This document shows, in pieces, positions 13,033 to 24,449 of a DNA stretch of 33,492 nt (position 1 is the stretch's first letter; every line of letters starts with the position of its first letter). The DNA lies in NCBI GenBank assembly GCA_012799725.1, contig JAAZKR010000024.1:1-33492 (forward strand), in the 5' to 3' direction. A model generated the notes under the pieces. That model did not search any database and was not told where the DNA came from. It was given only the letters and a program-made list of their open reading frames with translations. Source of the DNA: Oligosphaeraceae bacterium (GTDB lineage: Bacteria > Verrucomicrobiota > Lentisphaeria > Oligosphaerales > Oligosphaeraceae). The position numbers and the translations under genes were made by a program.

Positions 13033-13087
13033 ATTGGAAAACAGGACGCTCAAGCCGGTGCCGCGCGCTGTAACAGGGGGAATCCTC

Positions 13088-15814
13088 ATGCCTAAACTTA
13101 GCCGAGCGCCCGTATATTTATTTGCTTTTCTCGTTGCCACAACACTGGTTGCACAAGTCAAGGTTGATCACGCCCGCAGCGAATGGATGCAAGGCTATGT
13201 AAAGCTGGAAAATGCCGACAAGGCGCTGGCCGAGGATAATCACTTGGCCGCCGTACAGCTCTATCGCGAAGCATTGCTGGTCTTTGAAACAGTCAGGCGC
13301 AAGTACCCGCAATGGAACCCCTCACTACTGAATTTCCGAGTCAAGTATTGCCAAGATAAAATTGATCAGATCGAACGCAAGGTGCAAAGCGAAGCCGAGG
13401 AAATGTCGCGTGAAAAGCTCTTGAGGCTGATCGCGGATCAGGCGCAAATGCTACATGAAAACAGCGTCAAAATGCAACAGCTGCAAAACTCAGTGAATAT
13501 CCTTTCTGAGTCTTTGCAAAGAGCCCGGGCCGAGGCCGCCAGAAGCGCTGCCACCGAGGCTGATTTTGATAGTATAAGCCAGGCACGTCAAGATTTGGAA
13601 AGCCGTTGTCAGCTGCTGCAGAACAAATTAAGCAAGGCCGAAGAGGATCTGGCTGCTTTGCGTAAGAAAAGTGAGGATCAAACTTTATTAGTGAAATTGC
13701 GCCAGGATCATCGCTTGCAGGGCGAGCAACTTAAAGAAGCGCAGCGCCAAATAGAGGTTCTGCAGGGCAATGCCAGAAGCTTGACACAGGACTTACAGCG
13801 CAGTCAAGTCGAAAATCAGCGCTTATTGAAATTGACCCGGGACTATGAACAGCGCTTAGGTGCTGCTAATAATCGTGTAAACGAACTGATAGAGCAAGTT
13901 AATACTATTCATGCTCAATATAGCGATTTGCAACTGAAAAGCCGTCAGCAAGACATAGAGATGGCGACACATAAAGAACAGCTTCAACGCGCGCAAAGCG
14001 GTCAAAAGGAACTAAACGAGGAGGTTGCCCGACTACGCGATTGGCGCGAAAAGTTTCTGGCTTCCCAAACTGCGCAGCAGCAATTAAGGCAACAAGTCTC
14101 CGAGTTACAGAACCGTTTGCAGGAAAATTTGGAAAAGCAGCGCTTTGAATCAGCGCAGCGGGAACTCGACAACGAGAATTCCGAGCTGCACAGTCAGCCT
14201 GCCATTGGAGCTGAGGAACAAACCGCACAACAGGCGGCTGAAGAGCAGGCAAAGTCGCTACAAGCTGAACTAAGTCGGCATAAATTGGATTTGCAACGCT
14301 CGCACGAATATGCCTTGAATCTTGAAAAACAGGTTCAACAACTGCAAGTGGCACATACTGAACTTGCCAAGATAAACCGGCAACTCAAGGATAAGGACGA
14401 GCTGATCGGACAGCGTGATCTGGCTTTGCGGGAACAGAGCCGGAAGTTGGCCGACTCTAACAGCGAGTTGCTGGTGAAAAGCCAGGCACTTGAATCTACT
14501 CAAGTGGAGCTGCAAAACGTCAGGCGCAAGCTTGCGGAAGCCGAACAGGTTAATGTTCGGTTGGGCTCTGAGTTCAGCCGTATGCAGCGACGTAGCGGAG
14601 ATCATCGCCAGGAAGTAGAGGAACTGAAAGAAAAAGTACAGCAATTAGACCAGGAGAAGCAGGCGCAGCAAGAAAATGTGAATAAGCTGGAACTGGAACT
14701 CAAGACACGTGGTGAATTGAGCGCGAGATTGGAAAGTTCGCTGGCAGAAGCTGAACGCCGGAAAAACGAGCTGGAGAAAGAACTCCTGGCTCAAGAGGAG
14801 AAAAATCGTCAGATTCAGGCTAGCCTGACCGAAAGCATAAATCGCTCACAAGCTGCTGCCGGTATGGCCAGTAACTTAGTGGACCTGCAACAGGAATTGC
14901 TTCACAAAACCGATGAATTGACCGGTTTGCGGAAAGAGCTGGCCGATTCCTTGGCCAATGTCGAGCTGTTGCGGGAACAACTCAAAAGCCAACAGCAGGG
15001 TGCACAGAAACTGCAAGGCGAATCGAGCACAGGAAATGAGACGCTCTGGCTCGCTCGCATGGCCGAGCTGAATCGACGTCTCGAACAGGAGGAAAATAAG
15101 CGCAAAGCCCTCGAGATCGCCCTTATTCGAAAAGACAGCGCAAGCCGGGAGCAGAGAGCAGCGGAGCGCAGCACCGAATCAGAGCCATCAACACAGGCCG
15201 CCAGCAAGAATGAGGCAGCCGAGCCACAGAAATTATATACCGAAAGAGACATATTGCTGAATGGCTTTTTAAGACAAGCGCTGGATGCCGAAAAAAAACA
15301 GAAAATCGAGGCGGCTCAGTGGAACTATCAAAAGGTGCTTGAGCTTGATCCGGCGCATGCGCTGGCCTTAAAGCGCTTGGGGCTGATTGCTGCTAATCAC
15401 GGCAATGACGCAGACACGATTAAATATTTGCAGCTCGCTTTTCGTTATGATCCTGATGATTCCGACGTCTTGTTGGCTTTGGGCTTCGCAATGCTTAAGC
15501 AGAGACAGGTGGAGTGGGCTTTCTCATACTTGGGTAGAGCCTTGGCATTGCAACCGGCAAACCCGGGGCTGGCCAGCCATTTTGCTGCCGCCTTGGTTGA
15601 CTTGGGCTGGACGCAGGCCGCCGAACAGCAGTTTGCGCGCTGCCTGAAATTACAGCCTAATGATCCGCATGCTGCTTTCAATCTGGCGGTGCTCTGTGCT
15701 ACTGCACAGCCGCCACGCTTAAAAGAGGCAAAAAAATGGTATGAGATAGCGGTGAATAATGGTGCCGAAAAAGACCCGGGGCTGGAAGCGGCTTTCAATA
15801 TGGCACAACCCTAA
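13088..15814 (+). CDS. Secreted/envelope coiled-coil protein with C-terminal TPR repeats
   Basis: ATG 13088 after an AGGGGG-type RBS. Hydrophobic signal-like N-terminus MPKLSRAPVYLFAFLVATTLVAQ, then about 600 aa of heptad-rich Q/E/K/L coiled coil, then TPR-like repeats (AAQWNYQKVLELDPAHALALKRLGLIA..., YLQLAFRYDPDDSDVLLALGFAM..., YLGRALALQPANPGLASHFAAALVDLG). Confidence 0.85.
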   Translation: MPKLSRAPVYLFAFLVATTLVAQVKVDHARSEWMQGYVKLENADKALAEDNHLAAVQLYREALLVFETVRRKYPQWNPSLLNFRVKYCQDKIDQIERKVQSEAEEMSREKLLRLIADQAQMLHENSVKMQQLQNSVNILSESLQRARAEAARSAATEADFDSISQARQDLESRCQLLQNKLSKAEEDLAALRKKSEDQTLLVKLRQDHRLQGEQLKEAQRQIEVLQGNARSLTQDLQRSQVENQRLLKLTRDYEQRLGAANNRVNELIEQVNTIHAQYSDLQLKSRQQDIEMATHKEQLQRAQSGQKELNEEVARLRDWREKFLASQTAQQQLRQQVSELQNRLQENLEKQRFESAQRELDNENSELHSQPAIGAEEQTAQQAAEEQAKSLQAELSRHKLDLQRSHEYALNLEKQVQQLQVAHTELAKINRQLKDKDELIGQRDLALREQSRKLADSNSELLVKSQALESTQVELQNVRRKLAEAEQVNVRLGSEFSRMQRRSGDHRQEVEELKEKVQQLDQEKQAQQENVNKLELELKTRGELSARLESSLAEAERRKNELEKELLAQEEKNRQIQASLTESINRSQAAAGMASNLVDLQQELLHKTDELTGLRKELADSLANVELLREQLKSQQQGAQKLQGESSTGNETLWLARMAELNRRLEQEENKRKALEIALIRKDSASREQRAAERSTESEPSTQAASKNEAAEPQKLYTERDILLNGFLRQALDAEKKQKIEAAQWNYQKVLELDPAHALALKRLGLIAANHGNDADTIKYLQLAFRYDPDDSDVLLALGFAMLKQRQVEWAFSYLGRALALQPANPGLASHFAAALVDLGWTQAAEQQFARCLKLQPNDPHAAFNLAVLCATAQPPRLKEAKKWYEIAVNNGAEKDPGLEAAFNMAQP

Positions 15815-15900: not shown

Positions 15901-17235
15901 ATGAATTACCCGATCGTTTTAGAAAAACTTTACGAGAATATGGACGAGGCCAGCATAGGTCAGTGGCTGGTCAACGAAGGGCAGCAATTGCGCCAGGGCG
16001 AGGCCATGGTGCAGCTTGTCAGTGATAAGATGTCGGCTGAAATAGAGGCACCGGCAGATGGCGTGGTGGCTAAAATTTTCTTCCCTGAAAAATCGGTGCT
16101 GCCTTTTGGCGTTACCCTGGCTCTGCTTAGCGACGGCAAAGTTACGGATGCCGATATAAAGGCCATTGAGCATGAGAACCAACACCGCATGCGCAGCAGC
16201 CAAGCAGAACTCGATGTAGACCTCACGCTTTTACAGCCGAAAACTGAAACTGCGCCAGCTCACAAAGAGCCTGCCGAAGCTAAAAAGCAGCCTGAATTCA
16301 GAGCTGCGCCGGCCGCTCGTATTTACGCCCGGCAACAAGGCGTGGACTTGGCTGAGGTGGCCGCTTTTTGTGGCAAGAATAGCCTGCACCGTAAAGATGT
16401 GGAGGAGTATCTGCTGGCACGGAGTGCCAATGATGCAAAAAAAGAATGCGATGCCAATGCCGCACCGGTTAAATCTCATGCTGCTATTGCTTCTTCGGCT
16501 CCTCGTCTGGCCTTGCTTAGCGGCGCCAGCGGCGGCATTGGACGGGCCTGCGCTTTGCGACTGGCCGCCGCTGGCTTTGACTTGGCCTTGCAATATAACA
16601 GCAATGCGGATGCTTTGACACCCATTGTACAACAATGCGAAAGCCGGGGAAGCAGGGTACATTGCTTCCAAGCAGACCTGTTGCAACCCGGCGCTGCTGC
16701 TGAGCTGGTGCAGAAATGCATGGCGGAATTTGCGCGTCTAGATGTCCTGGTCAGCTGTGCAGGAATGCTGTCCGATGCACCGGTAGCCTTCATGAGTGAC
16801 CAGCAATGGTCTGAGGTCTTGCAGCTTAATCTGAGCGTGCCTTTTGAACTAAGCCGAGCTGTAGCCATGCATATGGCCAGGCAAAAGTGGGGCAGAATCA
16901 TATATTTCTCTTCGGATGCCGGACGCCTGGGATCGGCTAATCGAGCCAACTATGCCGCCGCTAAGGAGGGATTGCTGGGATTGATGCGCTCGATAGCCAG
17001 GGAAATGGCCGGACTGGGCATTACTGCGAATGCGATTTGTCCGGGCTTCATTGACACTGAGATGACTGCCTCAATCGGAGATAAACGCCGGATTGAATTG
17101 TGTAAATCAATACCGCTTAGACGTTTCGGCAAAGCTGATGAGGTCGCCAGCCTAGTTGCTTACCTGGTTTCTGAAGAGGCCGGCTATATCACCGGACAGC
17201 AATTCAGCGTGGACGGCGGCTTGTTTATGGGATGA
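15901..17235 (+). CDS. Fusion protein: lipoyl domain + E3/peripheral-subunit-binding domain + FabG-like short-chain dehydrogenase/reductase
   Basis: Residues 1-80 E2-type lipoyl domain with VSDKMSAEIEAPADGVV (candidate Lys43, codon 16027-16029); residues about 134-171 PSBD-like (RAAPAARIYARQQGVDLAEVAAFCGKNSLHRKDVEEYL); residues about 202-444 SDR with SGASGGIG, YAAAK, GITANAICPGFIDTEMT and VDGG. Confidence 0.9.
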   Translation: MNYPIVLEKLYENMDEASIGQWLVNEGQQLRQGEAMVQLVSDKMSAEIEAPADGVVAKIFFPEKSVLPFGVTLALLSDGKVTDADIKAIEHENQHRMRSSQAELDVDLTLLQPKTETAPAHKEPAEAKKQPEFRAAPAARIYARQQGVDLAEVAAFCGKNSLHRKDVEEYLLARSANDAKKECDANAAPVKSHAAIASSAPRLALLSGASGGIGRACALRLAAAGFDLALQYNSNADALTPIVQQCESRGSRVHCFQADLLQPGAAAELVQKCMAEFARLDVLVSCAGMLSDAPVAFMSDQQWSEVLQLNLSVPFELSRAVAMHMARQKWGRIIYFSSDAGRLGSANRANYAAAKEGLLGLMRSIAREMAGLGITANAICPGFIDTEMTASIGDKRRIELCKSIPLRRFGKADEVASLVAYLVSEEAGYITGQQFSVDGGLFMG

Positions 17236-17305: not shown

Positions 17306-17401
17306 GTCCAAAAAAGGGGGCAGGCGCATCTTATCCGCAGATTACACAGGTTACACAGATTACACAGATGGACATGGATTTCAGGATTGGGAATCGCCAT
17401 G
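17306..17401 (+). repeat. Dispersed intergenic repeat, copy 2 (expanded TTACACAGA core)
   Basis: GTCCAAAAAAGGGGGCAGGCGCATCTTATCCGCAGATTACACAGGTTACACAGATTACACAGATGGACATGGATTTCAGGATTGGGAATCGCCATG. Confidence 0.8.
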
Positions 17402-21708: not shown

Positions 21709-22416
21709 TTACTGACTGCCAATATCTTTCAGTGAAGCGAAGTCGAATATAACTCTGGTTTTCCAGTCTTCGCCATCCAGGCGCATTTCCTTAACGAACC
21801 ATAGTCCGTTCTGATGTTTTTTTGCGCCTTTCATCTCCAGGCTGCGCCAGAGGGTGTGCCCATCTTCCTTGAACCATTTGGCCAATAGCGGGAAGCCATA
21901 TTCGGCGTCAAACCAGACCTCTACTTGGCTTTTATTGCCGGGATGCGCCAATCGCATAACTCTGCAAGTGCGTGAACGATTCTTTTGCGCAGGCAGTTCC
22001 TCGATAAAGTCCCAATATATAAACGAAAAGCTCAGGTCTTCGGGTTCCAGGCCAAAGTCGAACAGTCCGGGCTTAGTTTCCGGCTCCGGCAGGTTAAGCT
22101 TGCAGTTTACCGGCTCGCCTACCGGATGATGCTGCTCAAAACCATAGATGCTTTTGTCGTTTAGCGTTATCTGTGCATGTAAGGAACTGCTGCTGAAACT
22201 GACACGCAGACGCAATTCGCCGTTGAGGCGAGATTGCCCGGTACGCTGATGCGTGATGCGCCCAGTAATCTCACCCCAGACATCCTGGGCTAGGGGACGT
22301 CGTATCTCGGCCAAAAACTCCTCTGCGCTTAACTCATTAGCGGCCAGTGTACAAGGCAGGCTCAGGCACAAGGCCAGCAAGATAGCGCGCAAGATATTGG
22401 TTCCGGCAATTCTCAT
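21709..22416 (-). CDS. Outer membrane lipoprotein-sorting family protein
   Basis: Signal peptide MRIAGTNILRAILLALCLSLPCTLAA; LEPEDLSFSFIYWDFIEEL, SRTCRVMRLAHP, VEVWFDAEYGFPLLAKWF. Confidence 0.75.
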   Translation of the reverse strand: MRIAGTNILRAILLALCLSLPCTLAANELSAEEFLAEIRRPLAQDVWGEITGRITHQRTGQSRLNGELRLRVSFSSSSLHAQITLNDKSIYGFEQHHPVGEPVNCKLNLPEPETKPGLFDFGLEPEDLSFSFIYWDFIEELPAQKNRSRTCRVMRLAHPGNKSQVEVWFDAEYGFPLLAKWFKEDGHTLWRSLEMKGAKKHQNGLWFVKEMRLDGEDWKTRVIFDFASLKDIGSQ

Positions 22417-24449
22417 GGTTGCTCCTCTATGTCCTGCGGAAAGTATTCCATATCTGAAGTTATCAATATTTGGTCAAAGGCGATGCCGTCTTCACGGTTC
22501 AGTACTCTGATTTGGTGCTTGCCGGCTTCCAGCTCGTAGACTCTTGGCGATTCCAGCCAATGCCAAGTATGATATGTACCATCGTTGCCTATGGTGATGG
22601 AACGCGGTTCATCATCGATTTGCAGATTGACGGTATTGCCACAGGCCCCATCCCACCAAGTGCGCAGCCAAATCTTGCATCTTTGCGCCTTGGGCAGTTC
22701 GATCTCAAAGAGCGCGCCGCCATGTTCCATGGCCGGTTCTTTGCCTTCGGGGGGCACACCCTTGCCATCGGGAATGCGCAATGAGAGCTTGTCAGCAGCC
22801 TGCGAATCCTGATGCTTTTCAAAGGGCGGTGTGAATTCTTTCACTTGACTGGCATTGACAACCAGAAAGAAATCACTGTCATGGCTGACAAAGTTGCTTG
22901 CGACATGAGTTGCCGCTGCACGCCGTACCCCTGAGCTGCCACTAAGCGAAGCATTTTGCAGTGGGTCCGCAACCGCCTTGCGCATCAACAAGGGAAGCAG
23001 TAACAAACCTAGCAATATGCCGCCGATAATGATCCCTTTAGTGTCGAGTTCGTTTAGCTTGCAGCGAAGTTCTTTGCCATGAGGAATGATGGCCGAGCAT
23101 ACGACGGCTGTGAGTAGCCAGCAGAGACCGCCGATCATAGGGTTACTGATAAAAAAGCCGGCAAAGAGCACAAACAGGGCACTTGCTGCGCCTAATTGCT
23201 GAGAAGCGGGCGAGCTTTCTTGCTGATAATATTTGCACAGAGCCAGCGTCATAGCGCCCAGCATCGCCAGAGCCAGGAAAAAGGTAAGCGGGAAGCCCAC
23301 GGTGCTCGCCAATATCCCCCAGCCGGCTTGGGTGTCGCTGTCTATATCATTATAGCTGGGATTAGGTAGCTCGCCATAGCAGCGCCCTATGTTGGCCTGG
23401 TAGCGTCCTGCACCCACGCCACAGCAGGGGCGCAGTGAGGCCATGCGCAGAGCTGCCAGAAAATCCAAATGGCAGGTTTTCAATTCGCCGGCATAAGCCC
23501 CACTTTTGCAAGGTGTCAAAGTGCCCAATACGGTGTCACGCTGTGTGTTTTCTTGCCCCATGGTTAGTGAAAACAATACCAGCAGGATGGCTAGCAGATT
23601 CAATAAAAGTGCTCTTTTATGCAGGAACATGGAGGCAATTAGCAATGCGACCATGCAAAGTACCAGCATCATACCGTGTGGAATGAAACAAAGCAGCAGC
23701 ACGGTAGCTAACAGGACTAACAAGCAGCGCAAAAGCCCGGGATTGCGACCAAGCCATTGCGGCTGCAACCAGGTCAAAGAAACCGCAAAATAGAAACTCA
23801 GCGCCATGCGGCTGCGGAAAAATCCGGTCAATGCCTTGCCGAAACCAAGAGGCAGTGCCAGGACATCTGCCGGAGCTTGGATAGAACCATAGCCGTATAT
23901 ATTGGTCTGTGCTATGGCTAACAGCAAGTTGCTGAAAAGTCCCAAGCTGAAGAGCAGAGCCACTGCGAAGGGGGAACGACGCAAAAAATAGCTTAAAACA
24001 AGAAAACCGCAAAAATATCGCTGATAGAGCTTGGCCGTCTCAAATGCGCCATTCATGCCAGAAGCAGCGAAAAAATTCACCAATGGAAATAGCGCTAGCA
24101 AGAAAAATCCGGTTAGCGGATAAAAAATTTTCTCTTCTTTGCGCCAACTGCACCAAAGTACAGCCAAAAACGTCAAGGTCACAGTCAGGTCGGACAGAGC
24201 CAGCCTGCCATTGCTGAATGGCAGCTTGATTTGTGAAGACATGCTTAACAGCGTGATTGCAAATAGCGCCCATAACCAAAGCGGTAAAGGCAAAAACTCG
24301 GCTTGGGTGACGTCACCTTTGACATTCAACCAGGCTTGAACCCGGTTTGTCAACTTGCTGATAATTGATTCAGCAGCAGGCTGCGGATCGGATTGCAACG
24401 AATTTTCCGCGTCAGTAGCTGCCGGGTAAATATTATCTTCATTTGGCAT
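22413..24449 (-). CDS. O-antigen ligase/polymerase-like multi-TM protein with C-terminal carbohydrate-binding-like domain
   Basis: 678 aa, about a dozen hydrophobic segments; periplasmic-loop region CCGVGAGRYQANIGRCYGELPNPSYNDIDSDTQAGWGILASTVGFPLTFFLAL as in O-antigen ligase (Wzy_C-like) proteins; C-terminal soluble region WLRTWWDGACGNTVNLQIDDEPRSI...TYHTWHWLESPRVYELEAGKHQIRVLNREDGIAFDQILITSD. Confidence 0.75.
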   Translation of the reverse strand: MPNEDNIYPAATDAENSLQSDPQPAAESIISKLTNRVQAWLNVKGDVTQAEFLPLPLWLWALFAITLLSMSSQIKLPFSNGRLALSDLTVTLTFLAVLWCSWRKEEKIFYPLTGFFLLALFPLVNFFAASGMNGAFETAKLYQRYFCGFLVLSYFLRRSPFAVALLFSLGLFSNLLLAIAQTNIYGYGSIQAPADVLALPLGFGKALTGFFRSRMALSFYFAVSLTWLQPQWLGRNPGLLRCLLVLLATVLLLCFIPHGMMLVLCMVALLIASMFLHKRALLLNLLAILLVLFSLTMGQENTQRDTVLGTLTPCKSGAYAGELKTCHLDFLAALRMASLRPCCGVGAGRYQANIGRCYGELPNPSYNDIDSDTQAGWGILASTVGFPLTFFLALAMLGAMTLALCKYYQQESSPASQQLGAASALFVLFAGFFISNPMIGGLCWLLTAVVCSAIIPHGKELRCKLNELDTKGIIIGGILLGLLLLPLLMRKAVADPLQNASLSGSSGVRRAAATHVASNFVSHDSDFFLVVNASQVKEFTPPFEKHQDSQAADKLSLRIPDGKGVPPEGKEPAMEHGGALFEIELPKAQRCKIWLRTWWDGACGNTVNLQIDDEPRSITIGNDGTYHTWHWLESPRVYELEAGKHQIRVLNREDGIAFDQILITSDMEYFPQDIEEQP

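Follow-up and report, generated by a model that had tools for sequence, protein, structure and literature searches.

The gene at positions 15,901 to 17,235 of the window (the whole 33,492-nucleotide stretch of Oligosphaeraceae DNA that was analysed) encodes a single polypeptide in which a lipoyl domain and a divergent PSBD-like (E3-binding-like) domain precede a FabG-type ketoreductase (KR). Its membership of a system comprising a ketosynthase (KS), a CLF-like partner and a dedicated E1 is well supported. We lean, with moderate confidence, towards the view that the fusion serves as carrier and reductase within a conserved biosynthetic system of the E1-lipoyl-KS/CLF-KR kind, the chemistry of which we infer. 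The discovery of an operon for this system in related lineages shifts the reading of the gene from an odd fusion to such a subunit, and suggests an undescribed way to load acyl groups into a biosynthetic pathway.

The gene is one uninterrupted open reading frame of 444 amino acids without a frame break (Table 1). Pfam places Biotin_lipoyl at residues 15-74, above its cut-off (E 4.9e-11), and adh_short_C2 at residues 208-441 (E 2.1e-56), while E3_binding matches residues 134-154 with 20.1 bits (E 7.8e-4), under its cut-off of 23.7. When a profile is built from the family's N-terminal half, almost all of it matches the lipoyl and PSBD regions of PDB pyruvate dehydrogenase (PDH) E2 chains (best match 9y7v, 3.2e-44; 3duf, 2.9e-24). 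The AF2 model shows a lipoyl barrel, a three-helix PSBD-like unit and a short-chain dehydrogenase (SDR), with a pLDDT of 82 for the whole protein and 90 for residues 1-180. Foldseek relates the N-terminus to lipoyl/biotinyl domains and the C-terminus to FabG, 2ph3 being the solved structure closest to the reductase part. The lipoyl, E3-binding and SDR layout proposed in the sequence-only reading is thus borne out, with the amendment that the PSBD is divergent. The same reading had noted that a CoA-acyltransferase domain is missing; indeed, the protein contains no HxxxDG motif and Pfam finds no PF00198 match in it.

The lipoyl domain carries the DK lysine characteristic of the E2 type. This residue, Lys43, and the KR residues Ser338, Tyr351 and Lys355 are invariant across 22 fused homologues. 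The reductase half is a Rossmann SDR with the Ser-Tyr-Lys set of FabG; it scores 246 bits against the 297.75 required by the FabG equivalog TIGR01830 and passes the cut-off of subfamily NF009466 (225 vs 222 bits). The PSBD retains its helices and the basic residues of the first helix, while the canonical GTGxxGR(I/V) loop is absent; every member has in its place a stretch specific to the family, which reads HRxDVE in the fused proteins. The domain thus appears to be a real but divergent PSBD and, with its altered loop, may dock neither E1 nor E3. No canonical counterpart was identified for the helix at residues 83-104.

Table 1. Features of the lipoyl-FabG gene, in window coordinates.
Feature	Position	Strand	Basis
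Whole gene: lipoyl domain, PSBD-like domain and FabG-type ketoreductase	15901..17235	+	ORF, Pfam, full-length homologues
Lipoyl domain, residues 1-77	15901..16131	+	Pfam PF00364, PDB profile match, AF2, Foldseek
Lys43 codon, predicted lipoylation site (SDK-M motif)	16027..16029	+	Invariant in 22 fused homologues; also in fused and stand-alone carriers
Helix predicted at residues 83-104, following the lipoyl domain, Asn93 invariant	16147..16212	+	AF2 models, conservation
Putative PSBD/E3-binding-like domain, residues about 133-172, without canonical GTGxxGR loop	16297..16416	+	Sub-threshold PF02817, PDB profile match to PSBDs, alignment
Ala-rich linker, low-confidence in the model	16417..16500	+	pLDDT <50 at residues 180-197
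FabG-type short-chain dehydrogenase/ketoreductase, residues 201-444	16501..17232	+	PF13561, NCBIfam NF009466 above cut-off, Foldseek 2ph3
KR catalytic Ser338 (16912-16914), Tyr351 (16951-16953) and Lys355 (16963-16965)	16912..16965	+	Invariant in 22 homologues

The fusion belongs to a Lentisphaerae-like bacterial lineage; among named records, a Lentisphaerae MAG comes closest. When the architecture was sought in other genomes, as the earlier reading had proposed, full or nearly full copies were detected in 24 of 60 sampled relatives (47-76% identity) and none was seen in twelve genomes of other orders of the class; the genomes are mostly MAGs, and absence from incomplete ones is weak evidence. 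A contig scan with the window protein alone returned mostly lone FabGs, because short single-sequence patterns overlook the fusion. A frameshift or an assembly join, which the earlier reading had named as what could undo it, is ruled out, as is a chimera, since many genomes conserve the one reading frame, among them a single-contig genome of 5.7 Mb.

The neighbours of the gene in the window are ordinary (UvrC, gyrase, SerC, TPR, DUF2851 and HtrA-like), and no partner gene lies inside the window, in agreement with the earlier remark that neither E1 nor E3 is encoded nearby. The upstream TPR gene and the downstream DUF2851 gene are conserved among close relatives only. The former, directly upstream (13034-15814), encodes a 926-amino-acid coiled-coil/TPR protein, and this order is retained in the closest relatives (L134, L135 and L137). 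Downstream of the gene, at 17335-17372, are short TTACACAG (cagattacacaggttacacagattacacagatgg) repeats, possibly a dispersed intergenic repeat. Two adjacent minus-strand reading frames of 235 and 678 amino acids, at 21709-24449, have no Pfam match, and Rfam recognises no RNA element in the window.

Order-mates and more remote related lineages carry the parts of the fusion as separate neighbouring genes. The operon order is lipoyl mini-E2 (without acyltransferase), FabG, KS, Cys-less CLF-like partner, E1alpha, E1beta, GT2, ACP, two alpha/beta-hydrolases and GT4, and the window gene is a fusion of the first two. The entire series is present in L344, L345, L347 and L348, and L346 has it as far as GT2. 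The L190 run consists of a 162-amino-acid lipoyl+PSBD protein, a 248-amino-acid FabG, a KS, a second KS-like protein, E1alpha (grouped with its relatives by the tree) and E1beta. L143 holds lipoyl-PSBD, FabG, KS and CLF genes, Pfam calling the stand-alone lipoyl+PSBD protein, and L303 continues it with E1alpha, E1beta, GT2, ACP and two alpha/beta-hydrolases. A lipoyl-FabG-KS-CLF-E1alpha run also occurs in L364, a short and possibly misbinned contig of an Armatimonadetes-labelled MAG. ACP, GT2, the two hydrolases and the GT4s are additional genes of the longer operons, where ACP is conserved (PF00550 in L303, with homologues in L344, L345, L347 and L348). No E2 acyltransferase domain was recognised among the operon genes. 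Nor was a dehydratase or an enoyl reductase recognised in the operon, which does encode an ACP.

The E1alpha matches TIGR03182 best (377 bits, just under the cut-off), E1beta is above the cut-off of PRK09212, and the best NCBIfam match of the stand-alone mini-E2 is the acetoin dehydrogenase E2, PRK14875. The KS retains, in alignment, the Cys and the His of GH(M/L)xGAAG, its first His being read from the sequences. Together with its partner, which lacks the active-site Cys and, in the order of the window, is cut to roughly half its length, it has the make-up of a KS-CLF pair; in the window's own genome the KS alone was found. The KS resembles FabF more than it does the KS enzymes of ishigamide and actinorhodin. 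The operon hydrolases (L345, 2545-4172, and homologues) are nearest to TIGR03101/TIGR03100, hydrolases of the exosortase A system, and a GT4 is similar to TIGR03088, which may connect these operons with exosortase/PEP-CTERM-type glycan loci.

A locus from the Planctomycetota side, L388 (G333:C74, 800-8050), has the order FabG-KS-CLF-GT2-ACP-two hydrolases-GT4, and no lipoyl or E1 genes are visible nearby. The E1/lipoyl module is thus not universal to the pathway, which is apparently present there in its absence; this suits a loading module that may be added or swapped.

Two further observations concern the surroundings of these genes. A protein of about 2000 residues, weakly similar to DUF6250 and to 3-keto-disaccharide hydrolases, lies upstream of the carrier in most operons. 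It recurs in L344, L345, L346, L348, L143, L119, L120, L305 and L307, adjoining a lipoyl-FabG gene, a mini-E2 operon or an E1alpha/E1beta pair, and may be a target or a companion of the pathway. In addition, L289 (33-2742) and L313 encode a different E1alpha/E1beta pair, on a long separate branch of the E1alpha tree; in L289 an SDR gene follows the pair directly.

In the window's own genome the partners are unlinked: E1alpha and E1beta are on contig C59, the KS is on C97, and C212 carries one homologue of the hydrolases. No CLF-like half was found next to the KS (the contig ends there, with no reading frame), GT2 was not found in the genome and the ACP gene was not located in it. It had been expected from the sequence that partners would act in trans, and this fits the dedicated E1alpha/E1beta and KS encoded elsewhere in the genome, which in other lineages belong to one operon with the gene of the lipoyl protein. 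Contig C231 encodes a complete PDH of its own (E1, E2, E3), so the lipoyl-FabG/E1/KS set is not the housekeeping PDH, and identity of the protein with the E2 of that complex is ruled out.

Although scattered, the partners are co-inherited in the window's family. Four markers (lipoyl-FabG, KS, GT2 and ABH2) are all present in 20 of the 60 relatives and all absent from 25; pairwise Fisher p values range from 2e-9 to 2e-7, related genomes being treated as independent. Among the 29 genomes of the family itself, the presence of lipoyl-FabG goes with that of the small E1alpha (p 1.7e-4) and with that of the KS (p 7e-5), kinship again being ignored. Genomes devoid of the fusion mostly retain only a large fused PDH E1.

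In the FabG tree, fused and operon FabGs form one clade (99/97), within which the fused proteins are a nested subclade (100/99), while the genome's other FabG falls outside. Identity with the housekeeping FabG is ruled out by this tree and by the separate FabG gene beside FabF on C208. In the E1alpha tree, the order's scattered E1alpha proteins (16 rows, 100/100) are sister to those of the operons (25 rows, 90/89), and the E1alphas of complexes having E2 and E3 fall apart from both. These two trees indicate that the fusion most likely arose within an already assembled system.

The preferred reading can be put as a series of steps. Lys43 would be lipoylated by the LplA/LipB-type enzymes that the genome encodes. 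The dedicated E1 would then decarboxylate a 2-oxoacid, most likely pyruvate, and reductively acylate the lipoyl arm; as E1alpha and E1beta are of the pyruvate/acetoin type, acetyl is the best guess for the loaded group. The acyl group would pass from the arm to the active-site Cys of the KS without an E2 catalytic domain or, less likely, via a hydrolase-fold transferase, and prime condensation with malonyl-ACP. FabG would reduce the 3-ketoacyl product to a 3-hydroxyacyl; a 3-hydroxyacyl end product would fit, as no dehydratase or enoyl reductase was recognised. The PSBD-like domain would dock E1 and/or the genome's E3, which would reoxidise the arm. In the fused form, a FabG tetramer could stand in for the E2 core, with four swinging arms. 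In the weakest step of the scheme, the glycosyltransferases and exosortase-system-like hydrolases of the operon suggest that the product may decorate a surface glycan or glycolipid.

The substrate of the reductase bears on a bolder proposal. FabG may reduce a group that the lipoyl arm of the same protein carries; an ACP-bound substrate is at least as likely, given the conserved ACP gene of the operons. Were the arm, in place of pantetheine, to do the job of the ACP, with the KS extending and FabG reducing an arm-held chain and with FabG as the core in place of E2, the system would cross a 2-oxoacid dehydrogenase with a type II fatty acid/polyketide synthase. It would then make sense that the domain fused to the arm is the reductase, and neither KS nor ACP, that the mini-E2 gene directly precedes FabG in the split operons, and that no E2 acyltransferase is there to unload the arm. 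However, FabG folds are known to act on ACP- or CoA-bound substrates, and the longer operons conserve an ACP gene of their own, so that we consider this proposal rather unlikely, though not remote. A further model, which we hold to be doubtful, assumes that the hydrolase-fold proteins pass the acyl group to CoA or ACP as AcoC-like transferases in trans, the KS being fed separately and the FabG fusion serving only oligomeric assembly. The match of the mini-E2 to PRK14875, a lipoyl protein with an alpha/beta-hydrolase domain, and the two hydrolase genes of the operon speak for it; yet these hydrolases match those of the exosortase system better than AcoC, and they occur in L388 too, in the absence of lipoyl and E1 genes. 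It is improbable that the lipoyl/PSBD half is a degenerate, never-lipoylated docking scaffold on an ordinary working FabG: the canonical PSBD loop is lost, but Lys43 is invariant, the lipoyl domain is retained in fused and stand-alone forms alike, and a dedicated E1 is inherited along with the protein. Least credible is a redox device handing electrons from E3-reduced dihydrolipoyl to the FabG reaction, as the sequence-only reading had entertained: the PSBD-like domain and the E3 encoded in the genome speak for it, but FabG-type SDRs take their hydride from NAD(P)H and the E1 and KS partners would be left without a role.

Lipoyl domains are known in a handful of central complexes, with few exceptions. 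Searches of a collection of open-access papers revealed no characterised enzyme of the present architecture, as the earlier reading had supposed: no lipoyl domain is described there together with a ketoreductase and an E3-binding domain, or with a ketosynthase and a polyketide, and searches for a lipoyl domain with ketosynthase, ketoreductase or starter unit returned nothing relevant. The closest precedent is QncN/QncL/QncM of quinocarcin and SclQ1-4 of scleric acid, where E1-like ThDP proteins work with a lipoyl protein and an ACP to load a C2 glycolicacyl unit (PMC6335953). As there, a split ThDP E1, a lipoyl domain and an ACP serve a biosynthetic cluster outside central metabolism (PMC6335953): the E1 pair is linked to the lipoyl protein in the operons and, in the window's lineage, by co-occurrence and phylogeny, and the discrete ACP is found in the operons. 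The Qnc and Scl lipoyl proteins keep an acyltransferase domain and feed an NRPS-type pathway; the present system lacks that domain and has KS-CLF and KR, and carrier and KR form one protein in the order of the window.

With the E2 of 2-oxoacid dehydrogenases (PDH, BCKDH and OGDH) the protein shares the lipoyl domain, linker, PSBD-like domain and dedicated E1alpha/E1beta; it differs in lacking the CoA-acyltransferase core, in its diverged PSBD loop and in having FabG at the core position. AcoC (PRK14875), which the stand-alone carrier matches best in NCBIfam, is an example of an E2 with a foreign catalytic domain behind its lipoyl domain. In AcoC, however, this is an alpha/beta-hydrolase, absent from both fusion and stand-alone carrier, whereas the window protein has an SDR and the hydrolases are separate genes. 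The reductase resembles FabG (3-oxoacyl-ACP reductase) in its whole fold and Ser-Tyr-Lys, and differs from the genome's other FabG in its clade and its N-terminal lipoyl/PSBD extension. A FabF-like KS having an active Cys also occurs with a Cys-less partner, a KR and an ACP in type II KS-CLF systems (aryl polyene ApeO-ApeC, ishigamide and actinorhodin), which differ in that no E1/lipoyl module accompanies these genes. The lipoate-binding proteins LbpA of Hdr-like sulfur oxidation have a lipoyl domain outside 2-oxoacid dehydrogenases, in a dedicated operon, and show that a lipoyl carrier can serve a non-classical pathway (PMC6067878), but they resemble GcvH and work without E1, KS or KR.

Here, operon, phylogeny and co-inheritance tie a lipoyl domain to a ketosynthase, a CLF and a ketoreductase, with the E2 acyltransferase missing. 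Several questions become testable: whether a KS takes its starter straight from an acyl-lipoyl arm, whether a FabG core can replace an E2 core, and whether a lipoyl arm can be the acyl carrier of chain building. The last, if true, would be categorically new. The findings also point to an uncharacterised pathway that occurs in several families within the phylum of the window and, apparently, outside that phylum too.
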